A stretch of 64,000 nt of DNA from Patiria pectinifera. Lineage: Eukaryota; Echinodermata; Asteroidea; Valvatida; Asterinidae. Under the pieces are notes generated by a model, which saw only the letters and a program-made list of their open reading frames with translations, was not told the origin of the DNA and did not search any database. Of this stretch, positions 12,301-46,275 are shown one piece after another. Position 1 is the stretch's first letter. Each line of letters starts with the position of its first letter. Made by a program: the position numbers and the translations under genes. The DNA lies in contig CM057142.1 in assembly GCA_029964075.1 (NCBI GenBank), forward strand, positions 39,310,392 through 39,374,391. The letters run 5' to 3'.

Positions 12301-15300
12301 ACAAACTCGCTCGACCTAGCCAAATTGTTTGTTATATCAGAATTTTGTATTAAGAAAAAAATCAATTTTTGTGTATGTATTATTTTCTGAATTATAGGGA
12401 AAAGGTTTGATATATTTTATAATGTTACAAGTTACTAACATTACTCAGGGTCATTAAAAAAAATTCTATAAATTTCATATTAAAAAAATATGTAGCGCCA
12501 AAAAGGGTCATGCATTTGCAAAGGGTCATTGCATTTATATGGTGATATTATTTGAACGGATTGAGCGATTTCGGTAATTTTTTCATCTAAAAGTAGTTTG
12601 TGAAATTGGCTTTCCAGTCATTATTATATTTTGGTGCTACATATTTTCCGATTTCATGACTCACGCTGTACTTGTACATTGTGTGCATTTCTCTCTGTTG
12701 TTAATGTAGATTTCAGTGGATCAATGCAGGTGCATCAGACAAGCAGGCCTTGAAGGAATATGTGTTGAGTTACTTTCAGAATGTGAGTTTACCTAATGTT
12801 TATAATATATTATTAAGCCGCGTTCGAATTGGACTAATACTTTGTAATACCGAGGCGATGTAAGAAATGGACTTTTGACTTGGGGACAATTTTACTGAGA
12901 CCATGTCAAAAGTGACCACGTTGGGCAAACATACGTGTTCACGCGATTGGCTGTCCTATGTCCTTGATCGTCATAGTGTATTGACATGATAGAGCCTTTG
13001 CCAATATCAGCTATATCAGTAAATGTACAACTTGTTCTGTTTTACAGCAATTTGTTTTCAAAAGTCAGGGATTTAACACACAAACAATTTTGCTTTCAGG
13101 GAACCCATGATCTGCTGGAGGAACAAATGTGCATCAAAGATGGTTTATCTCGCATCCTGGTAGAAATGATAAAAAGAGAATGGCCGCAGCACTGGCCAAC
13201 ATTGATGTCTGAATTCAACATGCTATGCTCCCATGGGGTAAGCTTAAGTATAATACGTTAACCTACTAGTCTTTGTACCGCCCAAAATTGCCGTGCCTAT
13301 TACTCCCAGTAATGCCCCAAACCACCCTGCCTGTTACTCTCAGTAACACTACAGACCACCCTGCTTATTACTCCCTGTACTGCCGCAAACCACCCTGCCT
13401 ATTACTCCCTGTATTGCCCCAAACTGCCCTGCCTATTACTCCCTATATCGCCCCAAACCACCGTGCCTATTACTCCCTGTACTGCCCCAAACCACCCTGC
13501 CTATTACTCCCTGCACTGCCCAAAATTGCCCTGCCTATTACTCCCTATATTGCCCCAAACCACCCTGCCTATTACTCCCTGTACTGCCCAAAAGTGCCCT
13601 GCCTAGTATTACTCCCGGTAATGCCCCAAACCACCCTGCCTATTACTCCCTGTACTGCCCAAAACTGCACTGCCTAGTATTACTCCCGGTAACGCCCCAA
13701 ACCACCCTGCCTAGACTACCCCAAACTGCCCTGCCTGTTACTTCCTGTAACTCCCCAAATCACCCTGCCTATTACTTTCTGTAGAGAACATTTGCCTTAC
13801 AACATTTGTATCCATTCCTCCGGTGTTCTATACCATAAGGATACCCAAACAGAACTGGTTCTTCTTGTGCTGCTCCGATTGGTGGAGGACGTTGTGGCCT
13901 TCCAGAACCTTCAGACAAGTCGGAGAAGAGATATCCTGCAAGCGCTGACGTCTCACATGGCCGAACTGTTCACATTCATGGTTCATCTGCTGACGCATCA
14001 CATCGAAAGATTAAAACAACTGGTAAGTATCTTTGCGAAAAGAAGGGAGGGCTATGCATGAAAACGAAAGCAGTGCCAGGCTTAATACGTTTGGCTAATA
14101 AGCTGCAAGAATGGGAGTTTTTCCTGATTTGTGAATGTAAAACCAAAGATCCTGAATGAACGTTAAAATATCTGTATTTTTGTTCTATGTAGGTCACTTT
14201 TACAGGAGTGCCTTTTTATAAAATGCACTGTAGTCAGACCCTGTGTTGCTTTGGGCCTTATTTTTTTTTTGGGTATTTTTGCTTGTGTGTGTGTGTATGT
14301 GTAAATTTTTGTTAACTTTTAACTGTGGCACCAGACTATTTATGCACCAGCAGTGCAGCCTTATTTTTTACTGTCATTTTGTTTTAAATATTGCTTTTAA
14401 ATATTAAACATTAGGAATGTTTAATTTAATTATTACATTATACAAGACTGGAATTTATTATTAATTAAATTTGCTTTCATTTTCTTACTTCCTTTCAAAA
14501 AAAAATTAAGATTTTACCTCACTTTCAATTCAATATGGCTGACTCATGAATAAGGCCCATGGGGCCCTGCCAAATGTTCCTCCAACTTCTTGCCTTGTGC
14601 AATACATGGATATTTCAGGTCAATCCGTTCAATGAGCTATTTGCAGCAGTTTATTCATTTTTCACTGGAATAATTTCTGATTTTATGTGCTATTCATCAA
14701 CAGCAAAATCAATTACCTGGTGCTGAGAAAGAGGTATGTTAAACTTGATCATTCTTTTCCAATATTACAGTGTCACATGATATTTAAAAACCATCTTTGT
14801 TGAATTTGTACCACACCTTGGACCATGATGGGATCACTGTAAAAGGCTTTTTGGAATACAAGAGAAATTCTCGAATACGTCATTATTTCTGTCATGTTCC
14901 TGACTTGCAACTTTTTCTTGGATCCGCTGATTTCATCTTAGTTACTTCCCATGCATGCCATTAACCCTAACAGAACTCAACCCATCAAACCCCAACAGCA
15001 TGTTTTGTTGGAATCTGTCAGGATGGGTACTGTACCCCTATATTGACAGTCTTTTACATTGGGTTGGCACACCTCCAGAATCAAAGTCAGAAATATGTGT
15101 TTGCAGTTTCCCATGGTGTTGGAATTTGCCAGGATGGGTATGGTTCCTAGTAATAATGCTTGGGAGTTAGGGTTTAACAACGGAAAACAATGCAGAGGAT
15201 CTTGTAAAGCTTGGAATTTCCTCCTTTTTTTGGTGGCTTCCCACTTGCATGCCTGAAATATACTTGTAAGTCAGTCAGTCTGTCAATTTTTGATGAACAA

Positions 15301-27300: not shown

Positions 27301-30300
27301 TTTTTTCCTTTTCCAGAGTTTTTGAGAATGGAAATAGATTTCTTGAGCATATTGGACTCTGCAAGGCACAGACATGTCCACCACAGGATGACAAACAAGG
27401 AGCCAATAGGGCAACTATATTAGCTTGCATATCAACCATGATGGCAGTGATGAAAAGGAGTAAACGGCCTCATGACCCACAGGTATGCAAACATAAGGAA
27501 TTCTCATAGCATTGGCTTCGTCTCTGGGCTCATTTCCGGGCTTAAAATTGAAGTACTCTAGCCATTGACCTCATCACATTGGCCGCATCATATTGACCTC
27601 ATCATATTGACCTCATCATATAGACCTCATCATATAGACCTCATCATATAGACCTCGTCATATAGACCTCGTCATATTGACCTAATCATATTGACCTCAT
27701 CATATAGACCATATCATATTGTCCTCATCATATTGCCCTCATCATATTGCCTTCATCATATTGCCCTTATCATATTGCCCTTATCATATTGACCTCACCA
27801 TATTGACCTCACCATATAGACCTCACCATATTGACCTCATCATATAGACCTCATTATATTGACATCACCATATTGACCTCATATTGACCGCATCATATTG
27901 ACCTCATATTGATGAAGTTGATGAGAAACTTGGCTACAAATTATTCAGCCAATAGGAACATTTGTTGTGCATTGGGGACAAGAAATTTGGTTACGCGTCA
28001 CGCGTGCTAGACTCACATACCGAGTGCAATTGATCAAGCGTGTCTTTTCTGCATATACTTGGGGCGACCAGTAAATTTAATGCCAAGTGTACTGGTATTT
28101 GAGTCTCGGATCATTATGCATGTGCTGCATTGCATGCGCTGCTCCATCACAAGCACCATGCTAGCATGTTACACGTACGTTCATTGTCAACATAGGCCAA
28201 GTTCGGGCGAGGACCATTAGTCGACTAGTGGTTGATTTGTGACGTACCTTACGCCTGCACACTGATAGCAACGTGCGAACGTCTCTAGTCAAACGCTGGT
28301 CAAAATGTCATCGCAAAACTCTTGGATACTGGCTCCCTGCTGTACGTTATGAATGTGCGCGGCTATCGGTTACCAGCGTTGCAACCAGCCCCAGTAGGTT
28401 GGTTCCCAATAGTCGACTAGTGTAGTCAACCACCGTCGACTAGACAGAGTTCGGGCTAACTTTTAGTCGAACTATGGTTAACCAATGGTCAACAATAGTT
28501 CTTGCGCGAACTTGCCCATACATGACAACATACGTTCATTGTCAACAGACATGTATGTACATGTAACATGTATAGTATTGGGGACGTGAGTATGGTATAT
28601 TGCAGTCATGCCAAATAATTTTCGGACCCTGGTGCAAAAACACACTGGCACCCCTGAGTATGCTGAAAATAGTGTAATGTCAAATTTGTATCCATAGCAA
28701 ATTGTTCTTTAAAATATCATGCTGAATAAAAATGCTATGAAACGTTCTGCACAAAACCACTTTATATAGCCTGGTGTTCATATAGACTCTAAGCTTATGC
28801 AGTCTGCGTAGACAGTACGCAGAACAGTCGGCAAAGTTGAACCTTGTTCAGGAAGGTTGCGTCTGGCTGGGTTGTCGGCGACACCTCCGGATGAAATGTT
28901 TCCATATGTCTGCCTTCCAATTTGGGTCCTGTTTGCGTTTCACTTTGCGTTTCTTACGTCGATATGGAAACTAGGCTTAAGAGTCACCTGAGGGCCCTTC
29001 ATTCTTTATCTAAAAGTGTGTCAAAATATTACCAATATCTTTCTAATTTGATGGAATTACACAAATGTGCAATACGTCAGCCCTTACTTTACGTATTTGT
29101 TTTCAGAAATTGGCTGGTGATTTCCATGCTTCATCCGGTATCGTGAATCGAGATCCATGTTGCCTTCATATATTGCCATTATTGGATAATGTACTTGCTC
29201 TGATGAGGTAAGCATTTTCATGGGCCATTTGTGTAAAGAGGGCATCACGCTTGTTTCAAAATGTGTATGTGTACTTAGTGGCGTTGTTTCTTTCTTTCTT
29301 TTCATCCCATTCCATTTCTCCCCCCCCCCCTTTTTTCAATTTTCAGTCAGTAGCCAATCCCTAGCACCAATCCTTAACCCTCCCAAAGTAGAGGACCATG
29401 TCTGAGAAATACCATCACTCACTCTGTTTTGCACAAAATGCTTCAGGACCAAATCCGTTAAATTCCACCGCTGGTAATTTTGTAATTTGTCATTTTGTAA
29501 TTTGTCCTTCTTTTCATTTACGTGTTAAAATATAAAAGGCCAATGGAATTTCCCGTCAGGGATAATAAGGCCAAAAAAAAAAGTCTCCAGTTTCTGGTAT
29601 GGAGCTTGCCCAAAAAGTGGTGCGGCGACGCGGATTTTTTTTTTTTTACCTGATTTTTTTGCTTCAAATGTCGGCTGATGACTACAAATGGTGCCCGACT
29701 AAACTTAGTGCAAATATATGGGAGTCCAGAGAGGCCACATAAAGCTTATTCTCGACCATAACCCAATCTAAAAACACGTTAAAATTGTGCAGCAGCAGCA
29801 TTCCAGTCAAACCAGTGAGTTTGGCGGTTTTGAGACATCATCTTTCATTGAAAAAAACTTTTTCATTTTGCCGACGCGCATGGCTAGGGCGACGCGTGCG
29901 CATACCAGAAACCGGAGACTTTTTTTTTTTGCCTAAAGTCAAATTGAATTGAATTGAATTGGTACTGGTGGATTTTGATGGACTTGGTACACACGCATGG
30001 CTTATCTGCCAAAATCTCCCAAAATGAGGGATGGATTTTTATGGAGTTGGTGAGGTTATAGGGTTAATATTTTTTTTAAAAATGCTCCCCTTGCCCCTTC
30101 CCCTCATAAAGCATGCCAATGAACACTAGTGATTTTAAAATAATTATGTAAATATATGAATACTTAATATCTATTAAGATTCTATATTGTATTTTTTGTA
30201 TATAACAATAGAACAATGAATGCAATATGGTCTCCAGAAATCAGAGCAACAATTCCTGCGGAGTTTTCCAAAGTCTTTGATATTCCTGAGCATGACAAAA

Positions 30301-33300
30301 ATGCAGTGTTAGGTGAGTATTTGACTTAGCGGCTTTGTAGGGCCACATACCTGTTGAGCAATAGTTATTACGGGGATGCTGTGGGGACAGCAGAAAGTCC
30401 CCATAACTTGGTCCTAATTTCCTTAACAGTAGAAAAAAATCCTCATAACAAGGTGTCGGCTATGGCACTCAAGAATTACACTGTATGAAACCATATTTGC
30501 TCTATTTTAATTAGGTTTAACTCAGCCATCCGATAACTATGAGCTGTGGGGACAGCAGAAAGTCCCCATAACTTGGTCCTAATTTCCTTAACAGTAGAAA
30601 AAAAATCCCCATAACAAGGTGTCGGCTATGGCACACGAGAATTACACTGTATGAAACCATATTTGCTCTATTTTGATTAGGTTTAACTCAGCCATCCGAT
30701 AACTATGAGCTTCCAGCTAACAGGTCCACCGCAGAAAAAATACAGAGCTTCCTGTCAACTGCCCAGGAAAACTGGTGAGTTTATCCATCAGTTGACTACT
30801 AACGTGACTAATTGATTGTTTTAGAGTTCTTAGCCTTTGAAGAATGGGCATCTAATGGTTACAATTGGATTATGCAACCAGTACAGTACTTTGTTGTTTT
30901 GTCAAAATGGGAAAGTTGAAATTATGAAGAGTTGTTTTTCAGTGCAGCTGGTTTGGTTCAGAAATGTTTGAAGTGAGCACTTTTTCTGGATGACTACTTC
31001 TTTTTTAGTTGCCACGTCTTGGCCAGTGCATGTGACAGCCTGGGATATGAGTTGTACAGCTTTCATCCCTTCATTGCACAACTTGTCCAGTCTGCGCCTT
31101 TCTTGCTGAATCATGCGCCCGACTACAAACTGCGACCGGTTATCCATATCCTTTTTGCCACCCAGTTATCCCTTTTGGCTCAGTTATCCTTTATGCCACC
31201 CAGTTATCCCTTTTGGCTCGGTTATCGATATCCTTGTTGCCACCCAGTTTCCCTTTTGGCTCAATTATCCACATCCTTGTTGCCACCCAGTTACATGTAT
31301 CCCTTGAGGCTCAGTTATCCATATCCTTTTTGCCACCCAGTTATCTCTTGTGGCTTAGTTATCCTTTATGCCACCCAGTTATCCCTTTTGGCTCGGTTAT
31401 CCATATCCTTTTTGCCACCCAGTTTCCCTTTTGGCTCAGTTATCCACATCCTTGTTGCCACCCAGTTACATGTATCCCTTGAGGCTCAGTTATCCATATC
31501 CTTCTCTTGTGGCTTAGTTATCCTTTATGCCACCCAGTTTCCCTTTTGGCTCAGTTATCCATATCCTTGTTGCCACCCAGTTACATGTATCCCTTGAGGC
31601 TCAGTTATCCATATCCTTTTTGCCACCCAGTTTCCCTTTTGGCTCAGTTATCCATATCCTTTTTGCCACCCAGTTATCCCTTGTGGCTCAGTTATCCATA
31701 TCCTTTTTGCCACCCAGTTATCCCTTGTGGCTCAGTTATCCATATCCTTTATGCCACCCAGTTTCCCTTGTGGCTCAGTTATCCATATCCTTGTTGCCAC
31801 CCAGTTACATGTATCCCTTGAGGCTCAGTTATCCATATCCTTTTTGCCACCCAGTTTCCCTTTTGGCTCAGTTATCCACATCCTTGTTGCCACCAAGTTA
31901 CATGTATCCCTTGAGGCTCAGTTATCCATATCCTTTTTGCCACCCAGTTATCTCTTGTGGCTTAGTTATCCTTTATGCCACCCAGTTTCCCTTTTGGCTC
32001 GGTTATCCACATCCTTGTTGCCACCCAGTTACATGTATCCCTTGAGGCTCAGTTATCCATATCCTATTTGCCACCCAGTTATCCCATTGAACTTTGAGAG
32101 GAATTTCATGAAATATTAAAATACAATCAACAGTTCTGGCAATGAGTGCTGTTAATCATTGTTGTCGGCAGCAAAGACCCATTCAAACCTTAGTCAAGGC
32201 ACAGGAATTTCCTTAACCTGAGATCACGTGTTTTCATGAAGTCACTAGTCTTGCACTGTCCTGTAGATTGCCAAGACCAAGTCTTGCTGCCAGTTCTGAA
32301 CTGCCTGTGTGCTTTCATGCTCCAAAGGTTGAGTCTTGCGTGGGATGCCGTCAATAAACGAATTGGCATGGGGTATGTAATGACATGTCTTTTATCATGT
32401 CAATTTTATGAAAATCAGTCCATGTTAGTATGGGGGAACTGGTAGAATATACTCCAAGTATGATTGCTTAGAAACCAATTCCCATACCTCTACCCTTACC
32501 CAGGTACTTTCAGAGATTGGCTGAGAAAATCCCACAGCAACTTTTAGTACCTCACGAGTATAAGCCAGTTCGGTATTTCAATGACCCGACATGCCCGAGG
32601 TCATTCGGGATAACATCGCTAACGTAATGTTAGGCGATGTTACGCGCACACCCGTTCTGCTGGTAATTTACAGGCAAGCGTCCTGCGCCCGCGTTCATGC
32701 GCCTTCGAAATGTTTGATTATCCCGAATGACCCGTGACCCATATCATTGTGCACATGCGCAGTTGAAATACTGAACTGGCTTATTCTTCTGAATAAAGAA
32801 GGACAACAAACTTTCTGAAAACAATTTGTATTTACTCTGATGGGCCTTTCACACTGTCCAATTTCCAAAATCACCGTGTTGGACCTAGGTCCAACTTGGA
32901 GATTTTATGAACCTCTTTCACACTAGCTACTTATGTGTCAAAAAAAAATGTCCTACTTTTGATCCTAGATAACTCTGTTGTTTACCAATGGAATTCAACC
33001 AAAATTTCGGATCATGTAAACAAGGCATGACAAAATTTATAGAGCGAGTTTCATCAGCTTTGTGCAAGAGGGTGAGATTTAAACGCCGTATGAAGAAAAG
33101 GCTCATTTTCAGAATCTGCCACTTTTTACTTGGCATCCTCCATGTCGATGCAGCGCTGGAGACGGTGGCGGGAGGCGCGTGCTATGGCCAAAAGCTTCTG
33201 AAGGAATGCAGGATCACCCCTGATGTCATTGCACACCTCCTCGATCGTTAGGCACAACACACGATCGAGGAGGAGTTCAGTGACGTGATCCTGCATCATT

Positions 33301-39300: not shown

Positions 39301-42300
39301 ACAGACCTATTCTAGAGTGACAGTCACTGCCACAGGCACTGCATGTGCAGGCTGATGCTGGAGCAGTCGTTGCAGGCTCTTCTCTTCCGTCTCTCACGCT
39401 TATCCTGCCAGACGTTGTAACGCTTTTCCTCACTATTCATGACACCTTTACGTACTACAGCCCAGTTGTGAAGTAACAGAAAAAAAACATTTATTATTAT
39501 GTAAATGGAAAGACACCTGTTTGGGACAGAGCTCATATCAGGAGCTTGCGACACCGTCATTGTTGAGGCCCTCACGTGACCTGTCACGTGACCCTGCTTG
39601 GTCACATGACAGGATGCAGTCGTACAAGTAGGCCAGTTTGTATCCTCCATCTCTGTGTTACCATTTGGCAGGGTCACGTGACAGGTCACGTGAGGGCCTC
39701 AACAACGCAAGTTGATAAAGACACGGAGACAGTGTCACAAGCTCCTGATTTGAGCTCTGTGATTCATCTTTCCATTTACTTGATTTAGTAATGGGACTGG
39801 AAACAAACTTACATGCTCGATGTATTATTATGGCTATATTATATGTGACCTATGTACTCAATGCACAAGTACGCATATGACGCATAGACTGGACAACCAA
39901 CGGTTACAAAGGCAGAGTAACGGGGTTCCACTGGGAGGGGCAAGGGGGCATTCATATGAAATGGGGCATTCATACGAATGCATAGCCAATGGCGCCTGAT
40001 ACTCAACCGAAAACGTGACATTATATTATTATATGTGACCTATGGACTCCATCCACAAATACCCCTGCTCCCCCCCCCCCCAACAGTTACAAAGGCAGAG
40101 CAACGGGGTACCCCTGGGAGGGGCAATGGGGAATTCATTCAAATGCATAGCCAGTGGCGCCTGAATCTCACCCGAAAACGCGACAGGTTTGTGCACATAT
40201 AGCATGTTTAGAAATTAGTCGTCCAGGCTTTCCCTCATATGCGTACAAATCAGTACACGCATGCGCTGTGTCCCTACATTGTACCACTGGGGCTTTCGGA
40301 AGTGGTCACAACAAGCAATACAATCCTCCTTGTCCAATACCTGCAATCATTCCAAACAAACAGCCCTTCAATCTACGTTTATATGTAGGTTTTTACTATC
40401 CATATAAATATGTTTTTCTATTCATTTTCAATTTCAAAACATTTTGAACATTATCTTGTAACTTTCTATTTTAGAGGCCCAGATTTGATATCCTCCAAGA
40501 AGTCATGTTACAGATTCCGGGAGTCACACAAGAGATACTTCAGACATTTGACCATCGGTTTATCTTCAACGAGGAGCATAAGAAACCTATCAGCGAAAAA
40601 AGTAGACGAGACAACTTCAAAAAAATGATCAGTGGAATCATTGGTGTAAGTTCACAATTAAAGGGATTTTTAACTTCATCCTTTTAAAGTGGAACTTTTT
40701 TTTTAAATTTGAGTCACACAAGCAAAAGAAAAACAACAGTCAACAGTAAACAAATTTCCTTTTCTAGCTTTATTTGCTTTGGACATCTTTTTCACAGCAG
40801 GTGTCCCAGAAAAGTTTTGGAATTCCTTTTTTTTTAATTTGAAAGCTTTGTTTTTAGCGGGCAAATATGATTTGAGTGCTTGCATCAGTTTGAAGGGAAC
40901 TAACTATAACATTTGTGTAGAGTCTGGCAATATCAATACATTTCTGTTCAGGAAAGAGACCATGCAATCACCATGTCTGTACGTATGTCCGTCCGTTCGT
41001 TCTGACCATAACCCACATGTGGCCACTTGTGAAACCTATAGAAAAACATCACCCCGGATGTGAAATCTTTAGAAAAGTGATAAAAGGAACACAATGCCAT
41101 CGCCCCACATAGTCCCTGGGATAGGGCCATTTAATCGCAAAATTTCATGATTAATCTTAATATTATTTTCTGTTGTAGGGTACCTTGGGACATCTGAAAA
41201 TGGTGCTCTTAAGTTGCACAGCCGGTATTTTTGCCTTCCAGCTCCAAAAAACTGATATTTTGGGGGCTTATTTTTTGAGAAACGGCTAAAATCATATTTT
41301 GGGCCTCTGCTCTCTCCAAAATGGTCCCGTCGTGACCTGTTTGCACCTTTTACCATCCTGATAGGATGGGTAAACAAGAAAAAATATGGTTGGTCCCAAG
41401 TTTATCCGTATTCGTGTTCCCAGGGCATATATTGCTTTGCCGACACCCCCCAAATCCTACGACTTTGCCCTGTTTGGGGACAATAATGACTTTGAAACTC
41501 ACACTTATTCCAAAGATACACACTTTCTTTATAATTTAAAAACTGCCTGAGGCCACAAGCTTTAATTTAAGTGGTAGATAAGCTTTCTGTCTTGAAAATT
41601 AGGCTCGCCATGGCCATTTTTGCTTCCCCTACCCCTAAATCACTCAAAACGGCTGTATAGTGGTTGGCATAGCAAACTTATTGTGCATTTTATGATAACA
41701 GTGCCAAATTTGGTACAGAGATAGACCAATATCATATCAACAAATGTGGATGTTGGAGCATCGCAGATCTGGCCCTTGATGGCCGTGGGAGGCATCATTT
41801 TAAAAGTGCTGAGTCATGCTGAGTCAGCACTATTTTGTAATGCGTTTTCTCGTGCAATATGGAGGCTAACATGACTTTCTGCCTTTTTTTCTACACGCTT
41901 GGATGCGAAACAGGCATAAATAATTGATTTTCTTTCAATACTTCATTGAATTTTTTTTAATAATGCCTGCCAGGTGATGTCAGGCCTGGCTACATGCACC
42001 TGCAAGAATTGTGCTGCACTGTAATATAGAATACAGACGTATATGTTGTCCTACACAAAGTTAGTTGGGAATTCAAGTTCTGACTCGCCAAAAATGACGT
42101 CCTGACAATGTTTAAGACCATCCACTATCATAGCAGGAATGGGTCTGGCAAAAACCTTGCCCCACAAATAAAAATCAACTGATTTTAGTCACAAAAAATA
42201 CCGAATCAGCATTTTTTAAATGCAATTATGTTTCAAGCTTAGGTGAAAACAAAAGATTGCTAGGTGATTTTCATAAAATTAACCATAGTATCCGTTTGCA

Positions 42301-45300
42301 GACATGCTTGTAAAATGCAGTGATGGTGATTTGTGGGGTGTCGAAGGAAAAGGTGGTTAAAGGTTGTAGGGGGGGGGGGCAGGGGGCGGGGTTTGGACAA
42401 TTAACAATATCTATGCATATCGAATTCCTAGTACATGCGCACTTGTGGTCTAGTATGTACAAATGGGTGCAAATATGTCATGGGAACACCATTTAGGGAA
42501 AACACATTTAGGTATACCGGTACAATGTACATTTGCTAAATGATTAAGCCTATATACATACGCACTGGGATAGTTTTTTTCAGGGGGGAGGGGGGCGAAC
42601 ATGAACCCACCTCCCCTCACGGTCCTCCCTCCCCTGGGGCAATGCCCAACATTTCCGATCGTGTTCAATCTGTCCATAGAAAAATGGATTTGTTTGTACA
42701 TTTAATTAATTACACGTGTATTAGTGAAGCCCGGGCATGCACGGTAAACGGGTCCAACTTAACGAAGTCTTATATAGCTATAGAAACCTTTTTAAAATTG
42801 CTTCCACACAACAAAATAAGCAAAATGATACCAATGAATTAGAGATATGATATTTCTGTTGGTTTTGGAAAAAAAACGGATGACAAAAAGTGGCATAGTG
42901 GGGGTGAAGCCCCACAAACTGACCTCCCCCAATGGCGGATTAAAGGGGGAGGGCGGCTGGGGCAATGGGGCCACGCCCCTCTTTCGTTTTAGTAACGTCG
43001 CTTAAAAGGCAGCTATTGCATACATCACCCACAAAACTCAACAAAAACAATAAATGTGCACCTCCTCCCCATGTTTTTCTATTAAATTTGGGGCGGAAAT
43101 CTTTGGACACATTTTTTTCTTCAACTAGATCCCCCCCCCCCCAAAAAAAATTGTGTTTAATATGGAAAAAAGGGGAGTGGGTACAGATTTATTGTTTTTG
43201 TTGAGTTTTGTGGGCGGTGTACGCAATAGCTGCCTTTTTGAGCGCCGTAACTAAAAACAAAGGGGGGCGTGTTTCTCCCGCCCTCCTTTAATCCACCGTT
43301 GGAGGTCAGTTTGCAGGGGTCCCTACTATGCCACATTTTGTCATACGTTTTCCCAAACCAACTAAAATATCATAATCCATTGGTTGTATTTGTTTTGCTT
43401 ATTTCGTTGTGTGGAAGCAATTTTCTGTAGCTGTAAGACTTCGTTAAGTTGGACCTGTCACTGACCAACATGCCCGGGCTGCACTAAAAACGTGTAATCA
43501 ATTAAATACATTATACCAACCAATCCGAGAATTTTGGACATGGCCCCGGGGGAGGGAGGATCGTGGGGGAGGCAGGATCGTGTTCTGCCCCCCCCCCCCC
43601 AAACAATTATCCCAGTGCATGGTTGCAGACCAGTAAATCGGTCCGAAATTGCCTACGCCGGCCAAATCACAATCTGCAGTATTTGAGCATGCTGTGGGTC
43701 GTGAAATTGAGTGTTTGTAAAATATATGGGTGGAAGCCGTGCACAGGACTATGAGCTTGTAGTTCCGTTCAATTTGGATAAATTGGGGCAAAGCGCTCTA
43801 TTTTGCAATGGAGTGTAGGCATCGTTTTTCATAATGGCGATGGGCTTCAGGACTATTTTCAGGGGTGATCATCTTCGGATGGAAATTTCTCCTAGAAGTC
43901 ATTAGTTGACCCCCCCCCCAAAAAAAAAAACTAAATTGAAAAGAAAATGAAAGATAATGAAATAAGCTTTAATTTGATGTGTGTCTCGAACACCTTGGAG
44001 CGTTGTGAGTATTTTTCCCGAATTTCTGAAGTGGGAGCATTCACCATTGGGGTCTATGGAAGTTTATTTACTGGTCTTCAACCATACAGGCCTTTTCTTT
44101 CAGCAAATATATATTGCTATAAATGTGCTCCGTAAGTCTTCCCCAAATGGTGTTCCCATGACATATTTTCACTTATTTGTACATAATAGACAACAAATGC
44201 AACATATTAGGAATGTGCATAGATATTGTTGACAGTCCAAACCCCGCCCCCCCCCCACCCCCTCCAAGTTTTAGCCAGCTTGTCCCTCGACACCCCATAA
44301 ATAACAAAGAGTCACCATCGCTGCATTTTACAGGCATGTCTGTATACGGAAACTAAGGTTAACGGTGATAAAAATGACCTAGAAATGTTTTTTTTTTCAC
44401 CGAAGCTTGAAACAGAATTGCATTTAAAAAAATGCTGATTCAGCATTTTTTGCGACTAAAGTCAGTTGATTTTTATTTGTGTGGCAAGGTTTTTGCCAGA
44501 CCCATTCCTGCTATGATAGTGGATGGTCTTAAACATTGTCAGGACGTCATTTTTGGCGAGTCAGAACTTGAATTCCCAACTAACTTTGTGCAGGACAACA
44601 TATACGTCTGTATTCTACATTACAGTGCAGTACAATTCTTGCAGGTGTAGCCAGGCCTGACATCACCTGGCAGGCATTATTTAGTTTTTTTTCAATAAGG
44701 TATTGAAAGAAAATCAATTATTTATGCCTGTTTCGCATCCAAGCGTCTTGAAAAAAGGCAGAAAAACATATTAGCTTCCATATTGCACGAGAAAACACAT
44801 TACAAAATAGTGCTGACTCAGCATGACTCAGCACTTTTAAAATGATGCCTCCCACGGCCATCAAGGGCCAGATCTGTGATGCTTCAATATCCACATTTGT
44901 TGATATGATATTGGTCTATCTCTGTACCAAATTTGGCACTGTTATCATAACATGCACAATAGGTTTGCTATGCCAACCACTATACAGCCGTTTTGAGTGA
45001 TTTAGGGGTAGGGGAAGCAAAAATGGCCTTGGCGAGCCTAATTTTCAAGACAGAAAGCTTATCTACCACTTAATTTAAAGCTTGTGGCCTCAGGCAGTTT
45101 TTAAATTATAAAGAAAGTGTGTATCTTTGGAATAAGTGTGAGTTTCAAACTCATTTCTGTCCCCAAACAGGACAAAGTCACAGGATTTGGGGGGTGTCCG
45201 CAAAGCAATATATGCCCTGGGAACATGAAAATGGATAAACATGGGACCAACCATATTTTTTCTTGTTTACCCATCCTATCAGGATGGTAAAAAGTGCAAA

Positions 45301-46275
45301 CAGATCACGACGGGACCATTTTGGAGAGAGCAGAGGCCCAAAATATGATTTTAGCCGTTTCTCAAAAAATAAGCCCCCAAAATATCAGTTTTTTGGAGCT
45401 GGAAGGCAAAAATACCAGCTGCGCAACTTAAGAGCACCATTTTCAGATGTCCCAAGGTACCCTACAACAGAAAATAATATTAAGATTAATCATAAAATTT
45501 TGCGATTAAATGGCCCTATCCCAGGGACTAACATGTCTCATCCGTCTGGTCGTCCGTACATATGTATGTTTGTGGTATTTTGGTTGAAGTTTCAAAAAAT
45601 TTGACTCATTTGAAAAAGTTGAACTCCAATTGGAACCAAACTTGGGTCATAGATGCAACATGGCGACCTTCATATAATCATGATGTCAAAGGTCACATAC
45701 GAGGTCAAAAGTCATCCAAGGTCAAGTTGTAAAATAGGCTGAAACTGTAAAATTGGTGTCATTTCAAAGTTGAAATCCAATTGTAACCAAACTTGATTCA
45801 TGGATGCACTATGGGAACCTTCATAACATTATGTTGTCAAAGGTCACAAACCAAGGTCAAAGGTCACCTATCAAAAATTTCACAGAAAACAGGCGAGACG
45901 CGTGGTTCAAGAACCACCTTGTTTAATTAATTTTACAGCCTCAATTAAAATATGTCTGTTACTGAACTCAGAACACCCCAGTGTTCTATACCATTGGAAA
46001 ACTCATGTTCTGCAAAATGCAGAAATACAGCTATCTCTTAAAAAGTCTGACTTTAAGCTCATAAGAATTGAACGTAATTTTGCTGCGCAAATTTTACATT
46101 GAAAGTGTATTGTTTATATGTTTCTTTGCAGAGACATATCGGTCAGATGTTCAGGAGAGAGATTATAATCAAAGACTTGAAGCCTGTCAGAAAACCAGCG
46201 AAGCGTAGCACCACAGACTTCACAGAGAATGCAGATATTGGGCTTGTTGCCTTGTTTGCCCACGATGATTCCTGA
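9251..46275 (+). CDS. XPO5: Exportin-5 (whole gene span, 29 coding exons, 1198 aa)
   Basis: Karyopherin-beta family exportin that binds RanGTP and carries double-stranded RNA hairpins, mainly pre-miRNAs, from nucleus to cytoplasm. I assembled 29 exons whose phases agree throughout; they total 3597 nt, 1198 residues plus stop, against about 1204 in human. Landmarks: N-terminal RanGTP-binding HEAT repeats (residues 1-100), the Xpo1-type region with KREWPQHWP at 126-134, DYDSDEEF near 430, RTRPVQNVRRHACS near 585, APDYKLRP near 870, GQHETC near 1072, and a C-terminal SRRDNFKKMISGIIG block. No stop or frameshift is needed. Twenty-seven introns are GT-AG; intron 22 is AT-AC (U12-type). Introns 3, 5, 11, 12, 14, 16, 21 and 26 hold nothing I recognise beyond simple repeats; the others carry elements listed separately. 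Intron 28 (5.5 kb) holds a giant palindrome. Confidence 0.97.
9485..9548 (+). repeat. 16-bp minisatellite, four units, intron 1
   Basis: CCCAATATTCGCGCTG repeated four times with single-base changes, 133 bp after the first exon. Each unit has two CpGs. Confidence 0.85.
9960..10030 (-). mobile_element. tRNA-like SINE head fragment
   Basis: On the minus strand GGGTTCGATCCC is a good Pol III B box, preceded by CATGACCC. No convincing A box or cloverleaf, so probably a SINE remnant rather than a tRNA gene. Confidence 0.4.
11070..11197 (+). CDS. XPO5: XPO5 exon 2
   Basis: Residues 35-77 (last codon split after AA). Acceptor aacatacag, donor gtaagt. LCEEFKETAP and VIRHFGLQLLE match the second HEAT repeat of vertebrate XPO5. 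Confidence 0.95.
11550..11712. repeat. Degenerate AGTCGACT repeats, intron 2
   Basis: Irregular repeats of GACTA / TAGTCG on both strands, with a TGCTTTTTAGCA hairpin near 11668. Similar to the AGTCGACTAGT core of the element at 28190-28520. Confidence 0.5.
11760..11970. repeat. AGGTCA-bearing dispersed repeat, intron 2
   Basis: Contains GAGGTCAAAGGTCATGTAGG (direct AGGTCA half-sites spaced by one base) and ends ACACACGTGGTTCA. The same motifs close the repeat block at 45600-45920. Confidence 0.5.
12710..12782 (+). CDS. XPO5: XPO5 exon 3
   Basis: Residues 77-101. Acceptor gttaatgtag, donor gtgagt. Peptide FQWINAGASDKQALKEYVL corresponds to vertebrate KFRWNGMSRLEKVYLKNSV. Confidence 0.93.
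13100..13237 (+). CDS. XPO5: XPO5 exon 4
   Basis: Residues 102-147, both ends phase 0. Acceptor tgctttcag, donor gtaagc. Carries IKDGLSRILVEMIKREWPQH, the most conserved exportin-5 segment. Confidence 0.98.
13265..13785 (+). repeat. 34-bp minisatellite filling intron 4
   Basis: About 15 imperfect units of CAAACCACCCTGCC plus TATTACTCCCTGTACTGCCC. It occupies almost all of the 602-bp intron between exon 4 and exon 5 and is open in several frames only because the unit lacks stops. Confidence 0.93.
13840..14022 (+). CDS. XPO5: XPO5 exon 5
   Basis: Residues 148-208, phase 0 at both ends. Acceptor ataccataag is weak in pyrimidines, but the peptide DTQTELVLLVLLRLVEDVVA aligns directly with vertebrate ETQTELVMFILLRLAEDVVT. 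Donor gtaagt. Confidence 0.96.
14704..14733 (+). CDS. XPO5: XPO5 exon 6 (30-nt microexon)
   Basis: Ten residues, QNQLPGAEKE, 209-218. Acceptor catcaacag, donor gtatgt. It fills the linker that in vertebrates reads VKTDTSQESK. It is frame-neutral, so skipping would leave the protein intact; it is the least certain exon. Confidence 0.7.
14961..15177 (+). mobile_element. MITE with TTAACCCTAAC ends, copy A (intron 6)
   Basis: Ends are TTAACCCTAACAGAACTCAA and GGGAGTTAGGGTTTAA. An inverted copy of the same sequence is at 34199-34417. Contains two CAGGATGGGTA motifs. Non-coding. Confidence 0.8.
15705..15890 (+). mobile_element. tRNA-derived SINE (intron 6)
   Basis: Head has an A-box-like AGCTCAGTGGTTGAGTG (15723) and a B box GGTTCGAGTTCC (15775). 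The body follows with CCCTTGGACAAAACTAAACA and CCCACAATTAAAC. The head does not fold as a functional tRNA. Confidence 0.7.
15911..16096 (+). CDS. XPO5: XPO5 exon 7
   Basis: Residues 219-280. Acceptor cttttaacag, donor gtgaaa. LTLTGYVDWVASQHI aligns with vertebrate NTLAGYIDWVSMSHI. Confidence 0.96.
16120..16308. mobile_element. MITE with CAGTCGACTCTC termini (intron 7)
   Basis: CAGTCGACTCTCTTTAGTAC at the left is mirrored by TTAACGAGAGTCGACTG at the right, about 190 bp apart. No coding content. Confidence 0.75.
17216..17617. mobile_element. Inverted-repeat element with CCACATCACGGCAGTCAACA ends (intron 7)
   Basis: Left end CCACATCACGGCAGTCAACA, right end TTGTTGACTGCCGTGATGTG G. The right end continues into TTTTTAACCCC; a diverged relative of this end lies at 17112-17170 (TGTTGACCCCTGTGATGTGG). 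Confidence 0.75.
17965..18041 (+). CDS. XPO5: XPO5 exon 8
   Basis: Residues 281-306 (split after CA). Acceptor aaaacgcag, donor gtgagt. GKPEERYPLLVLFSADAI matches vertebrate GKLEDRKPLMVLFGDVAM. Confidence 0.95.
18201..18735 (+). mobile_element. MITE with TTAAAGGGAATATACAAC ends, copy 1 (intron 8)
   Basis: Terminal inverted repeats of about 24 bp (TTAAAGGGAATATACAACAT and its complement near 18715-18735). Inside is a hairpin at 18362-18397 with arms CCAACGGTG and CACCGTTGG. A second direct copy sits at 19301-19823 in the same intron. Confidence 0.88.
19301..19823 (+). mobile_element. MITE with TTAAAGGGAATATACAAC ends, copy 2 (intron 8)
   Basis: Aligns along its length with 18201-18735. The left terminus is decayed (CTAAAGAGAAGATACAACAT) while the right is intact. 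The internal hairpin (about 19452-19489) has arms CCGACGCTGG and CCAGCGTTGG. Confidence 0.86.
20036..20135 (+). CDS. XPO5: XPO5 exon 9
   Basis: Residues 306-339. Acceptor tgattccag, donor gtatgt. FMKRLCQVLTGLGAQLCILW matches vertebrate FLKRLCQVLCALGNQLCALL. Confidence 0.97.
20205..20360. repeat. Dispersed repeat fragment filling intron 9
   Basis: Shares, in opposite order and strand, GTTCTGTCCACGGATCAC AAAAA and TTTTTTACTCRCCCTGTA with 23780-24003 in intron 13. Most of this short intron is therefore repeat-derived. Confidence 0.55.
20424..20636 (+). CDS. XPO5: XPO5 exon 10
   Basis: Residues 340-410, phase 0 at both ends. Acceptor cttaatag, donor gtattc. Contains FPDFLETLLAFLGHPSMHLC and AFFRHDQIS, aligning with vertebrate FGKYLESFLAFTTHPSQFLR and ALFRHEILS. 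Confidence 0.95.
21228..21502 (+). mobile_element. tRNA-derived SINE with CAAA tail (intron 10)
   Basis: A-box-like TTGGCATAAGAGGTA, B box GTTCGAATCCC (21281), body GGTTTTCAGTCCCTGCCTG and GGGGTTTTCGTCCCACCTCT, and an (AAAC)n tail at 21481-21500. The body recurs at 7215-7320 (minus). Confidence 0.82.
21607..21697 (+). CDS. XPO5: XPO5 exon 11
   Basis: Residues 411-441 (split after A). Acceptor acgtgtag, donor gtaagt. VGYPSRDDSP and LLDYDSDEEF match vertebrate MGFPSKTDSP and RFDFDSDEDF. Confidence 0.96.
22431..22553 (+). CDS. XPO5: XPO5 exon 12
   Basis: Residues 441-482, split codons at both ends. Acceptor atccttttag, donor gtaggt. LTFQVACDWFRQLI aligns with vertebrate TSFQMAGEWLKYQL. Confidence 0.93.
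23269..23432 (+). CDS. XPO5: XPO5 exon 13
   Basis: Residues 482-536. Acceptor cttaaacag, donor gtaata. HSPSCIGWDALTCFMENVL and VQLLQMTLSFQTE align with vertebrate FSPSFVQWEAMTLFLESVI and IELLQMVLNFDTK. Confidence 0.96.
23780..24003. repeat. Dispersed repeat fragment (intron 13)
   Basis: Related to 20205-20360; ends GTTTTTTTACTCGCCCTGTA. No coding content. Confidence 0.5.
24403..24498 (+). CDS. XPO5: XPO5 exon 14
   Basis: Residues 537-568. Acceptor gttttggcag, donor gtagga. DPTLLSYVLSTISTLFPVV aligns with vertebrate DPLILSCVLTNVSALFPFV. Confidence 0.97.
24881..24922 (+). CDS. XPO5: XPO5 exon 15
   Basis: Residues 569-582, IFSAAVFSLPGQTK. Acceptor tgctttacag, donor gtaccg. Matches vertebrate VFSKLFSSVTFET; 42 nt, frame-neutral. 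Confidence 0.88.
25160..25432 (-). mobile_element. tRNA-derived SINE (intron 15)
   Basis: On the minus strand the head reads TGGCCTAGTGGTTAGGG (A box) then GGGTTTGAATCC (B box), followed by a body that on the plus strand reads GGACGGGATCCTAGTCCATC and ACTCCTGGGTGGAGAGAGGC. A full-length or nearly full-length copy. Confidence 0.85.
25563..25652 (+). CDS. XPO5: XPO5 exon 16
   Basis: Residues 583-612. Acceptor tatattctcag, donor gtaatg. RTRPVQNVRRHACSALVKIC aligns with vertebrate RTRAVRNVRRHACSSIIKMC. Confidence 0.98.
26369..26568 (+). CDS. XPO5: XPO5 exon 17
   Basis: Residues 613-679 (split after GA). Acceptor ccctacag, donor gtaatg. LEKSTLNEVLILLSNEFNDL and MEPVTGVWM align with vertebrate MEKCALMEALVLISNQFKNY and MAPVASIWL. 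Confidence 0.97.
26585..26967 (+). mobile_element. MITE with TTAACC ends (intron 17)
   Basis: Left TTAACCTAACCCTCCCAAAT, right AGGGAGTTGGGGTTAA. The interior repeats GGAGGATTTTGCAGGATTGA several times. Related by termini to the elements at 14961, 34199 and 36664. Confidence 0.7.
27317..27482 (+). CDS. XPO5: XPO5 exon 18
   Basis: Residues 679-734. Acceptor ccttttccag, donor gtatgc. FLEHIGLCKAQTCPP and DDKQGANRATILACISTMMA align with vertebrate FIAYVGTDQKSCDP and EDPCGLNRARMSFCVYSILG. Confidence 0.94.
27562..27915 (+). repeat. 15-bp minisatellite (intron 18)
   Basis: About 23 units of CATATTGACCTCATC with variants such as TAGACC and TTGCCC. On the minus strand most units contain AGGTCA. Confidence 0.95.
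28190..28520. mobile_element. MITE with GGCAAGTTCG-type ends (intron 18)
   Basis: Left GGCCAAGTTCGGGCGAGGAC, right TTCTTGCGCGAACTTGCCC, facing each other; interior carries several AGTCGACTAGT motifs and CAACCAC / GTGGTTGA. Confidence 0.65.
29107..29207 (+). CDS. XPO5: XPO5 exon 19
   Basis: Residues 735-768 (split after AG). Acceptor tttcag, donor gtaagc. CCLHILPLLDNVLALMR aligns with vertebrate CTEQILKLLDNLLALIR. Confidence 0.93.
29567..29935. mobile_element. Complete MITE with AGGCCAAAAAAAAAA ends (intron 19)
   Basis: Terminal inverted repeats of about 30 bp: left AAAAAAAGTCTCCAGTTTCT plus GGTATG, right CATACCAGAAACCGGAGACT plus a T run and GCCTA. The interior is the inverse of 8140-8410. 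A related element with different interior is at 50961-51342. Confidence 0.85.
29936..30070. repeat. Fragment of the CCAAAATC(T/C)CC repeat (intron 19)
   Basis: Contains GGTGGATTTTGATGGACTTG and CCCAAAATGAGGGATGGATT, ending GGGTTAA; a truncated relative of the TTAACC-ended elements at 26585 and 36664. Confidence 0.5.
30212..30312 (+). CDS. XPO5: XPO5 exon 20
   Basis: Residues 768-802, split codons at both ends. Acceptor ataacaatag, donor gtgagt. MNAIWSPEIRATIPAEFSKV corresponds to the vertebrate stretch around LYAPEMLAKMAEPFTKAL. Confidence 0.9.
30381..30711 (+). repeat. 165-bp tandem duplication spanning the exon 21 acceptor
   Basis: Copy 1 30381-30545, copy 2 30546-30711, almost identical. 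Each contains GTGGGGACAGCAG, TTCCTTAACAGTAG, CTCTATTTTRATTAG and the first 31 bases of exon 21. Only the second copy runs on into the rest of the exon. Confidence 0.95.
30681..30774 (+). CDS. XPO5: XPO5 exon 21
   Basis: Residues 802-833, split codons at both ends. Acceptor ttttgattag, donor gtgagt. Peptide LTQPSDNYELPANRSTAEKI, followed by QSFLSTAQEN, aligns loosely with vertebrate NDSPVFKTVLERMQRFFSTL. Its first 31 bases and acceptor are duplicated 166 bp upstream. Confidence 0.9.
31009..31145 (+). CDS. XPO5: XPO5 exon 22
   Basis: Residues 833-879 (split after one base). Acceptor ttttttag. HAPDYKLRPVI aligns with vertebrate NIPDYRLRPML. The exon ends GTTATCC and is followed by ATATCCTT, not GT. 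Joining C to GT of exon 23 restores the conserved R of RVFMK, which fixes this boundary. Confidence 0.9.
31140..32090 (+). repeat. 44-bp minisatellite carrying U12 donor copies (intron 22)
   Basis: Two alternating half-units, TTATCCATATCCTTTTTGCC plus ACCCAG and TTATCCCTTTTGGCTCAG, with variants (TTTCCC, TTACATGTATCCCTTGAGG). The array begins inside the last bases of exon 22. Exact ATATCCTT occurs at 31146, 31228, 31321, 31403, 31496, 31561, 31611, 31654, 31698, 31742, 31785, 31835 and 31928. The array has few stops, so long spurious frames cross it. Confidence 0.95.
31146..31153 (+). promoter_or_regulatory. U12-type 5' splice site ATATCCTT (XPO5 intron 22)
   Basis: Exact match to the AT-AC U12 5' splice consensus. 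Supported by exon phase (exon 22 ends phase 1) and by the conserved protein junction P-V-I-R-V-F against vertebrate P-M-L-R-V-F. Confidence 0.88.
32209..32227 (+). promoter_or_regulatory. U12 branch point and AC 3' splice site
   Basis: TTCCTTAAC at 32209-32217 is the exact U12 branch-site consensus; the intron ends ...GATCAC at 32227, 11-12 nt after the branch adenosine, inside the usual U12 spacing. Confidence 0.88.
32228..32372 (+). CDS. XPO5: XPO5 exon 23
   Basis: Residues 879-927, split codons at both ends. Starts GTGTTTTCATGAAG; donor gtatgt. RVFMKSLVLHCPVDCQDQVL aligns with vertebrate RVFVKPLVLFCPPEHYEALV, then FMLQRLSLAWDAVNKR with YLHMRLSQKWQVINQR. Confidence 0.95.
32558..32793. mobile_element. 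MITE with ATAAGCCAGTTC ends (intron 23)
   Basis: Left ATAAGCCAGTTCGGTATTTC, right TGAAATACTGAACTGGCTTA; inner second repeat GGTCATTCGGGATAA / TTATCCCGAATGACC. Confidence 0.75.
32841..33554. mobile_element. Fold-back transposon with CCTTTCACACT ends (intron 23)
   Basis: Outer ends GGGCCTTTCACACTGTCC and ATAGTGTGAAAATACC; inner, better conserved arms GTTGTTTACCAATGGAATTC / AATTCCATTGGTAAACAAC and AAACAAGGCATGACAAA / TTTGTCATGCCTTGTTTAC. Between them is an 87-codon open frame (32988-33251) rich in Lys and Arg with no recognised domain, and a hairpin CCTCCTCGATCG...CGATCGAGGAGG. Confidence 0.75.
33571..34075 (-). repeat. Hairpin-bearing repeat element, copy 2 (inverted)
   Basis: Reverse-oriented relative of 1850-2395. 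Hairpin part 33571-33674 (CAAATATTGAATGCTTCGGC...AAGCATTCAATATTTG) has lost most of one arm. The rest matches through CACTTCACCCACAGATTCTG and the CG-rich portion, ending near CACAGAATCTGTGGTTGAGG. Confidence 0.72.
34199..34417 (-). mobile_element. MITE with TTAACCCTAAC ends, copy B (intron 23)
   Basis: Inverted copy of 14961-15177. Ends TTAACACTAACTCCCAAGC and GAGTTCTGTTAGGGTTAA. Confidence 0.8.
34613..34710 (+). CDS. XPO5: XPO5 exon 24
   Basis: Residues 927-960, split codons at both ends. Acceptor gaaacacacag, donor gtaagg. NQESQEIIDEMFLRLITRDY aligns with vertebrate NPESQEMLEEQLVRMLTREV. Confidence 0.97.
35360..35791 (+). mobile_element. MITE with TTAAAGCTACAGTCCATCAT ends (intron 24)
   Basis: Left TTAAAGCTACAGTCCATCAT TTGCA, right TGCAAATGATGGACTGTGCC TTTAA. 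The same element, interrupted by another, is at 49710-50912. Confidence 0.88.
36243..36403 (+). CDS. XPO5: XPO5 exon 25
   Basis: Residues 960-1013. Acceptor acgtgttag, donor gtttga. Acidic Ser/Gly-rich linker (METMESESVASAEGG) then EQLGELGKKILQHE, matching vertebrate MAELTDLGKCLMKHE. First 19 bases recur at 36462. Confidence 0.92.
36462..36480 (+). repeat. Duplicate of the first 19 bases of exon 25
   Basis: GTACTGTATTCAAGAAGAG, preceded by a tag as in the true acceptor, lies 58 bp after exon 25 ends. It is followed by a further partial copy (ATATTCAAGAAGA). Confidence 0.8.
36664..37009 (+). mobile_element. MITE with TTAACC ends (intron 25)
   Basis: Left TTAACCTTAACTCCCTAGCG, right GTGGTGAGGGTTAA. 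Interior repeats CCAAGTCCATCAAAATCCAT and its complement. Confidence 0.7.
37760..37864 (+). CDS. XPO5: XPO5 exon 26
   Basis: Residues 1014-1048. Acceptor tttcaacag, donor gtgagt. YSSLSWNDTQTCTKSLNMCW aligns with vertebrate FNSLAWKDTLSCQRTTSQLCW. Confidence 0.96.
38442..38579 (+). CDS. XPO5: XPO5 exon 27
   Basis: Residues 1049-1094. Acceptor ttgaacag, donor gtgaga. LLLGLEVHGQHETCTSLLVQ aligns with vertebrate VLKGLQMHGQHDGCMASLVH. Confidence 0.97.
38818..39254. mobile_element. MITE with 8-bp target duplication (intron 27)
   Basis: Ends CATAGAGCTATATTAAATTA and TAATATAATATAGCTCTATA; flanked on both sides by GTATGCGC (38810-38817 and 39255-39262). 437 bp, no coding content. Confidence 0.82.
39490..39790. 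repeat. E-box-rich fold-back (intron 27)
   Basis: Arms of about 95 bp: GTAAATGGAAAGA...CAGGAGCTTGCGACACC, GTTGAGGCCCTCACGTGACC and its mirror image to CATCTTTCCATTTAC. Each arm has two CACGTG boxes (39573, 39585; 39675, 39687). Confidence 0.85.
39838..40200 (+). repeat. Tandem duplication, unit about 187 bp (intron 27)
   Basis: TATTATATGTGACCTATG starts both units; each includes GGTTACAAAGGCAGAG-type text, TGGGAGGGGCAA and AATGCATAGCCARTGGCGCC. Copies end in CCGAAAACGTGACA and CCGAAAACGCGACA. Confidence 0.88.
40475..40645 (+). CDS. XPO5: XPO5 exon 28
   Basis: Residues 1095-1151. Acceptor ctattttag, donor gtaagt. RPRFDILQEVMLQIPGV and SRRDNFKKMISGIIG align with vertebrate RPRYLEIRAVMEQIPEI and RRKDQFKRLIAGCIG. 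Confidence 0.98.
41110..45530. repeat. Giant 4.4-kb palindrome (XPO5 intron 28)
   Basis: Left arm from 41110 (TAGTCCCTGGGATAGGGCCA) is mirrored by the right arm ending at 45530 (TGGCCCTATCCCAGGGACTA); the centre is near 43085-43140. The outer 290 bp differ at only about five positions; the inner parts are less alike, and the right arm has about 600 bp more (43560-44160). No coding gene; a 90-codon open frame in the outer part of each arm differs by amino-acid-changing substitutions and is not supported. Poly-C/G runs lie around the centre. Confidence 0.93.
45535..45920 (+). repeat. AGGTCA-rich dispersed repeat (intron 28)
   Basis: Two rounds of TTGAACTCCAATTGGAACCA / TTGAAATCCAATTGTAACCA, each followed by a run of AGGTCA half-sites (CAAAGGTCACATACGAGGTC, CCAAGGTCAAAGGTCACC) and closing with the palindrome GTGGTTCAAGAACCAC (45903-45918). 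Confidence 0.65.
46132..46275 (+). CDS. XPO5: XPO5 exon 29 (stop)
   Basis: Residues 1152-1198 and TGA at 46273. Acceptor tttctttgcag. RHIGQMFRREIIIKDL and ENADIGLVALFAHDDS align with vertebrate KPLGEQFRKEVHIKNL and DNDGGGLATIFEP. Confidence 0.95.
   Translation, partial: RHIGQMFRREIIIKDLKPVRKPAKRSTTDFTENADIGLVALFAHDDS

Follow-up and report, generated by a model that had tools for sequence, protein, structure and literature searches.

A minisatellite across a putative minor-spliceosome donor in an exportin-5 gene

We describe a minisatellite in an exportin-5 gene that begins on the last bases of an exon and repeats the donor of an intron which, read from its sequence, is with high confidence U12-type and AT-AC. 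Minor-spliceosome introns make up fewer than 0.5% of introns, and their donors are strongly conserved. The array is a genuine and uncommon minisatellite at an exon-intron boundary, lies on a putative donor of the minor spliceosome and is most likely close to neutral. We infer that it grew by tandem duplication over the exportin-5 AT-AC donor as a nearly neutral mirage (a minisatellite lying over an exon-intron boundary), that its first donor is the one used and that the extra donors are tolerated, a reading to which we give a probability of about 0.72. The features are listed in Table 1; the window is the whole 64-kb stretch of DNA analysed.

Table 1. Features of the donor array and its surroundings, in window coordinates.
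Feature	Position	Strand	Basis
Tandem duplication, two copies of 166 bp, over an acceptor (AG 30679-30680) and 31 nt at the start of the preceding exon	30378..30711	+	TRF; acceptor by eye
Exportin-5 exon upstream of the putative U12 intron, 137 nt, 3' end ...CGACCGGTTATCC	31009..31145	+	Protein match, PF19273
Minisatellite across the donor junction, 947 bp	31139..32085	+	TRF; monomers divided by hand
AT-AC intron, 1082 nt, beginning after base 1 of an Arg codon	31146..32227	+	Protein fit to human exportin-5
Putative U12-type donor ATATCCTT, first copy, read as authentic	31146..31153	+	Motif match; predicted U11 pairing
Twelve additional exact ATATCCTT	31228, 31321, 31403, 31496, 31561, 31611, 31654, 31698, 31742, 31785, 31835, 31928 (span 31228..31935)	+	
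Donor copy with one mismatch, ATATCCTA	32059..32066	+	
Putative U12-type branch site TTCCTTAAC	32209..32217	+	Motif match; predicted U12 snRNA pairing
AC intron end	32226..32227	+	Protein fit
Exportin-5 exon downstream of the putative U12 intron	32228..32372	+	Protein match; right end is a GTATGT donor, by eye, unscored

The gene and the class of the intron

Translated-exon searches of the window matched human exportin-5 (PDB 3a6p) piecewise along 13840-38552 on the forward strand. The joined exons that flank the array score 45.2 bits against PF19273 (Exportin-5; cut-off 27), confirming with the human match that the array lies in the XPO5 gene, as the initial annotation had it. When joined by the AT-AC ends, the two exons align with human exportin-5 without a gap across the junction (E 1e-15).

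The initial annotation held that only the AT-AC junction keeps the reading frame. Within the ranges tried, 108 donor-acceptor pairs (36 GT-AG, 34 GC-AG and 38 AT-AC) give an open joined frame, so frame alone cannot decide the class of the intron. What stands of that claim is the fit to human exportin-5, in which the AT-AC pair reaches 145, the best GT-AG pair 127 and the best GC-AG pair 120. Five control introns were listed, and the two that had no human anchor were left out; in each of the remaining three GT-AG came out first, with a lead of 9, 13 and 4 points on the top AT-AC pair. With margins this small, one of them only 4 points, protein fit alone is not overwhelming.

The intron also carries both elements that had been annotated as U12-type, the donor ATATCCTT and the branch site TTCCTTAAC, whose letters we take to be those of the U12 consensus. 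The branch-site adenosines lie 11 and 12 nt upstream of the last base of the intron, inside the optimum of 11-13 nt that the excerpted text of a 2012 review gives for U12-type introns (PMC3584512). Searches of the assembly (613.5 Mb, 1020 contigs) returned the cognate snRNA genes, each as one match over the cut-off: U11 with 108.1 bits, U6atac with 139.2 and U12 with 132.6. These three genes indicate that the minor spliceosome is present in the organism. The 5' end of this U11 is predicted to pair with the authentic donor over 9 bp (-7.7 kcal/mol), U6atac is predicted to pair with that donor too, and a pairing of -8.3 kcal/mol is predicted between the assembly's own U12 snRNA and the branch site. 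A PF05253 search for U11-48K gave two hits separated by about 790 bp (G000:C4:12855892-12856748), both CHHC zinc fingers that look GTSF1-like rather than like U11-48K.

It is highly improbable that the intron is U2-type and that its AT-AC ends are coincidental. Two of the frame-compatible GT-AG pairs lengthen the protein by only 8 or 9 residues relative to the AT-AC pair, but in both the added residues interrupt a conserved part of the protein, and no GT-AG pair comes closer than 18 points to the AT-AC pair. GTTATCC is, moreover, a poor U2 donor, and the four CAG/TAG sites that lie downstream of the array and ahead of the next exon follow only 41-59% pyrimidine. The U2 reading of 31146-32227 was set aside on the protein fit. 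Together the ungapped protein fit, the branch-site spacing, the cognate snRNA genes and a repeat unit confined to one locus give good support to the U12-type AT-AC reading proposed in the initial annotation, and likewise to the view that the array grew out of the donor junction.

A second boundary repeat is present in the same gene, the duplication at 30378-30711, which runs across a U2-type acceptor and has left a decoy copy of it some 166 bp upstream, with one base different just before the AG. Copies of TTCCTTAAC at 30419 and 30584 in the preceding intron were considered as part of a second U12 intron and rejected; the second copy is some 90 nt away from the acceptor, and the donor of that intron, judged by eye, is GTGAGT.

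Anatomy, uniqueness and likely origin of the array

Divided by hand, the array consists of 43 monomers in which donor-bearing halves alternate with donor-free halves. Two monomers, one of about 20-26 and one of about 17-24 bp, together make up the repeat unit, and the spacing of the donors is therefore variable. TRF reports several periods, from 43 to 224; the tandem array of the initial annotation thus stands, and its single 44-bp unit does not. Its donor count was recovered exactly on recounting, with twelve exact copies beyond the first and one with a single mismatch. All 13 exact copies of ATATCCTT are on the forward strand, at 31146-31935. TTTG follows eight of them, namely the site read as authentic and seven copies, and these eight show no difference over the 27 nt that run from GTTATCC to CACCCAG.

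Not every slot that should hold a donor still does. Among 22 donor-bearing slots, a number that includes the fusion monomer at 31487 which alignment placed in the other group, 13 hold the exact ATATCCTT, one holds the mismatch copy, four read ACATCC and four are without the six bases ATATCC. The donor has thus been lost from 8 of the 22, which is the expectation without selection for keeping donors. Against a neutral reading, an exact donor kept in 13 slots could also be read as retention.

The array starts on the last seven bases of the exon, GTTATCC, which stand for Val-Ile and the first base of the Arg codon, and a further GTTATCC closes it. Nine bases (CGGTTATCC) of the exon end recur in two of the units and eight in a third, so that the six exon bases first annotated were too few. 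These 7-9 shared exon bases and the single-locus unit give good support to the view that the satellite was seeded by the U12 donor junction, and tandem duplication out of the junction would be the simplest origin. The last 7-9 exon bases and the start of the intron may have been duplicated in tandem and then homogenised. A short intron, probably of some 150-170 nt, would in this way have been lengthened to 1082 nt, the donor being copied along.

That the assembly has the length or order of the array wrong is barely credible. One amphioxus mirage was aberrantly assembled in a genome draft, according to a legend in PMC3087553, but the units here carry private variants in an ordered shared pattern, and the locus is found once, in a contig of 54.9 Mb. 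A search of the 613-Mb assembly with the repeat unit, omitting very common words and scoring the best candidates only, returned 20 matches that all lie in the array, with the locus present once. A scan of viral contigs yielded no relatives. COX1 gave no match in the assembly, against matches in 8 of 14 control genomes, and the mitochondrial genome is probably absent from it.

Exact ATATCCTT occurs 14 times on the two strands of the window, once outside the array (18117), against 2.66 expected and a maximum of 6 in 100 shuffled windows. The idea that so high a count is remarkable in itself was rejected: a pattern of three RTATCCTT gave 11 matches at 5 places in the genome, a backward-read control pattern gave 42, and other arrays are rich in RTATCCTT. 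The special feature is the position of the array on a real splice junction, not the number of 8-mers. TTCCTTRAY was absent from the same strand in all four RTATCCTT loci inspected. Two unrelated tandem arrays lie in 3-kb loci that hold 7 (L012, G000:C2) and 18 (L016, G000:C9) copies of RTATCCTT.

The window contains 11 tandem arrays (period at least 10, at least 3 copies), the donor array included, which cover 5.1% of its 64 kb, and arrays are thus common here. A typical animal has a few hundred U12 introns. It is plausible, as a rough guess and not a computed rate, that a handful of such boundary coincidences arise per genome without selection.

Other features of the window were also noted. 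A 34-bp pyrimidine-rich array at 13294-13783 ends about 57 bp upstream of an exportin-5 exon, near its acceptor, and a 14-bp array of about 25 copies (ATTGACCTCATCAT) lies between exportin-5 exons at 27564-27907. A long open frame at 1-1688 has, by eye, the look of a LINE-type reverse transcriptase. Two opposed open frames, at 41072-41401 on the reverse strand and 45239-45601 on the forward strand, appear near-identical by eye and are probably mobile-element copies.

Predicted effects of the extra donors

The first donor, at the original end of the exon, is most likely still the one in use, since it is the sole exact copy that gives the conserved protein, defines a 137-nt exon and is transcribed first. 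Use of the first five extra donors would add 82, 175, 257, 350 or 415 nt, none divisible by three, and the exon frame runs open for about 450 nt into the array, to a stop at 31595-31597; on both points our figures agree with the initial annotation. Any of the 13 extra donors (12 exact and the mismatch copy) would, if used, lead to a premature stop. The first five would shift the frame and reach a stop in the next exon (32237 or 32355), and the other eight would meet the stop at 31595 inside the extension. Because any use would give a premature stop, the extra donors are probably tolerated decoys or a mild splicing load, drifting and being lost.

The same stops could be put to another use. If a real fraction of transcripts took the extra donors, stops and decay would lower exportin-5 according to the length of the array, and the fate of all 13 donors, together with seven decoys that match the true site over 27 nt, would suit such a system. 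We hold this to be unlikely. Premature stops are the default for most random donors and so are no sign of design, five offsets all escaping divisibility by three with a chance of about 13%, and even the nearest extra donor would take the exon from 137 to 219 nt. Mirages are, in addition, reported to leave splicing undisturbed in the excerpted descriptions (PMC3087553, PMC3902484).

As read from its sequence, the array would present the minor spliceosome with a ladder of near-identical donors. To this extent the ladder of identical donors in the initial annotation follows from the sequence; any consequence for splicing or for miRNA export is conjectural. According to the excerpted 2012 review, alternative splicing of minor-spliceosome introns is almost absent (PMC3584512); a review of 2021, likewise excerpted, gives some cases of competition and of cryptic sites at minor introns (PMC8329584).

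The extra donors are also predicted to pair with U11 and U6atac, some of them more weakly. We compared predicted U11 pairing in overlapping 12-nt windows of the array with a background made up of every second window of the flanks and the whole reverse strand. Pairing of -6 kcal/mol or stronger is predicted for 38% of array windows against 3.2% of background windows, and of -7 kcal/mol or stronger for 9.1% against 1.0%; at -9 there is no array window, against 0.05% of the background. The enrichment comes in part from donor-free monomers, whose CCCTTTT is predicted to pair with U11 more strongly than the donor does (-8.6 against -7.7).

This excess of U11 pairing would be expected of an oversized natural element resembling the USSEs of SNRNP48 and RNPC3, where, in the excerpted accounts, tandem U12 donors attract U11 and switch on a U2 3' splice site that lies upstream. 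The donors would bind U11/U12 di-snRNPs and stay mostly unspliced, and the array would either help to define the exon upstream of it or turn on U2-type acceptors of its own, tuning exportin-5 to the level of the minor spliceosome. As potential U2-type acceptors the array offers 37 CAG/TAG sites that follow 59-76% pyrimidine. Known USSEs, however, are short, conserved and located in minor-spliceosome genes, of which exportin-5 is not one; 8 of the 22 donor slots have been lost; and much of the pairing lies in donor-free monomers, with the array absent from the strongest class. That the array binds U11 in the manner of a USSE is conceivable, though unsupported, and we rate it as quite unlikely. 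It is less probable still that the array is a working landing strip for U11/U12 di-snRNPs whose copy number, variable between individuals, would set the efficiency of intron removal and the amount of exportin-5.

On the preferred reading of a nearly neutral mirage, the locus keeps its value for the study of splicing. With 13 exact donors, eight of which agree over 27 nt, it offers a natural and direct test of donor choice by the minor spliceosome, for which position, exon length and transcription order are the candidate determinants beyond donor sequence. It further suggests that minisatellites at exon-intron boundaries can involve the minor as well as the major spliceosome.

Comparison with known systems

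Intron gain by tandem duplication of sequence bearing a splice site, as described in excerpted sources, likewise multiplies splice signals within a gene. Here, in contrast, an existing intron has been lengthened and no new intron is evident.

USSEs have two donor copies, whereas this array has 13 exact and several degenerate ones, begins with the exon's own donor and lies in exportin-5. Excerpts of four papers present the USSE of SNRNP48 and RNPC3 as U12 donors repeated in tandem, to which U11 binds and which activate a U2 acceptor upstream (PMC8329584, PMC6865273, PMC5473595, PMC3584512), a short conserved repeat of sites unused as donors in autoregulated minor-spliceosome genes. In both it and our array, tandem U12-type donors occupy non-coding sequence that follows a U2-type 3' splice site, and in our array predicted U11 pairing accompanies the donors. 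We do not count the array as a USSE, since its first site is read, from the protein fit, as the donor of the exon, and exportin-5 does not belong to the minor-spliceosome genes.

The closest likeness is to the mirages of amphioxus. In the excerpted text these are minisatellites over exon-intron boundaries, in Adh3 and the globins BflGb6 and BflGb9 (PMC3087553) and also in PGBD5 and troponin C (PMC3902484), reported from lancelets with units of 10-72, 60, 108 and 150-160 bp (PMC3087553, PMC3902484). Like our array, they repeat exon bases and a splice site in tandem, at a donor or an acceptor, and contain extra splice signals; our array holds both the exon and the intron bases of its boundary. 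Lancelets have many GFP genes; a GFP-family search gave no match in the assembly, its control being silent in every genome as well. The splice signals of the amphioxus mirages are AG/GT, whereas the signal here is a putative AT-AC minor-spliceosome donor. Among the matches listed for XPO5 as a minor-intron gene in the open-licence literature, available as excerpts, nothing was usable; PMC9372748 names both terms, and in another paper XPO5 figures merely as an RNA-binding protein. The initial annotation knew of no satellite seeded by a U12 donor. Boundary minisatellites as such are established in amphioxus, and none on a U12 donor is described among the excerpted matches listed by our open-licence searches, which joined U12 or minor intron with minisatellite or tandem repeat. 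As far as these excerpts reach, the class of boundary minisatellites is already known, and a mirage on a minor-spliceosome AT-AC donor appears to be new.
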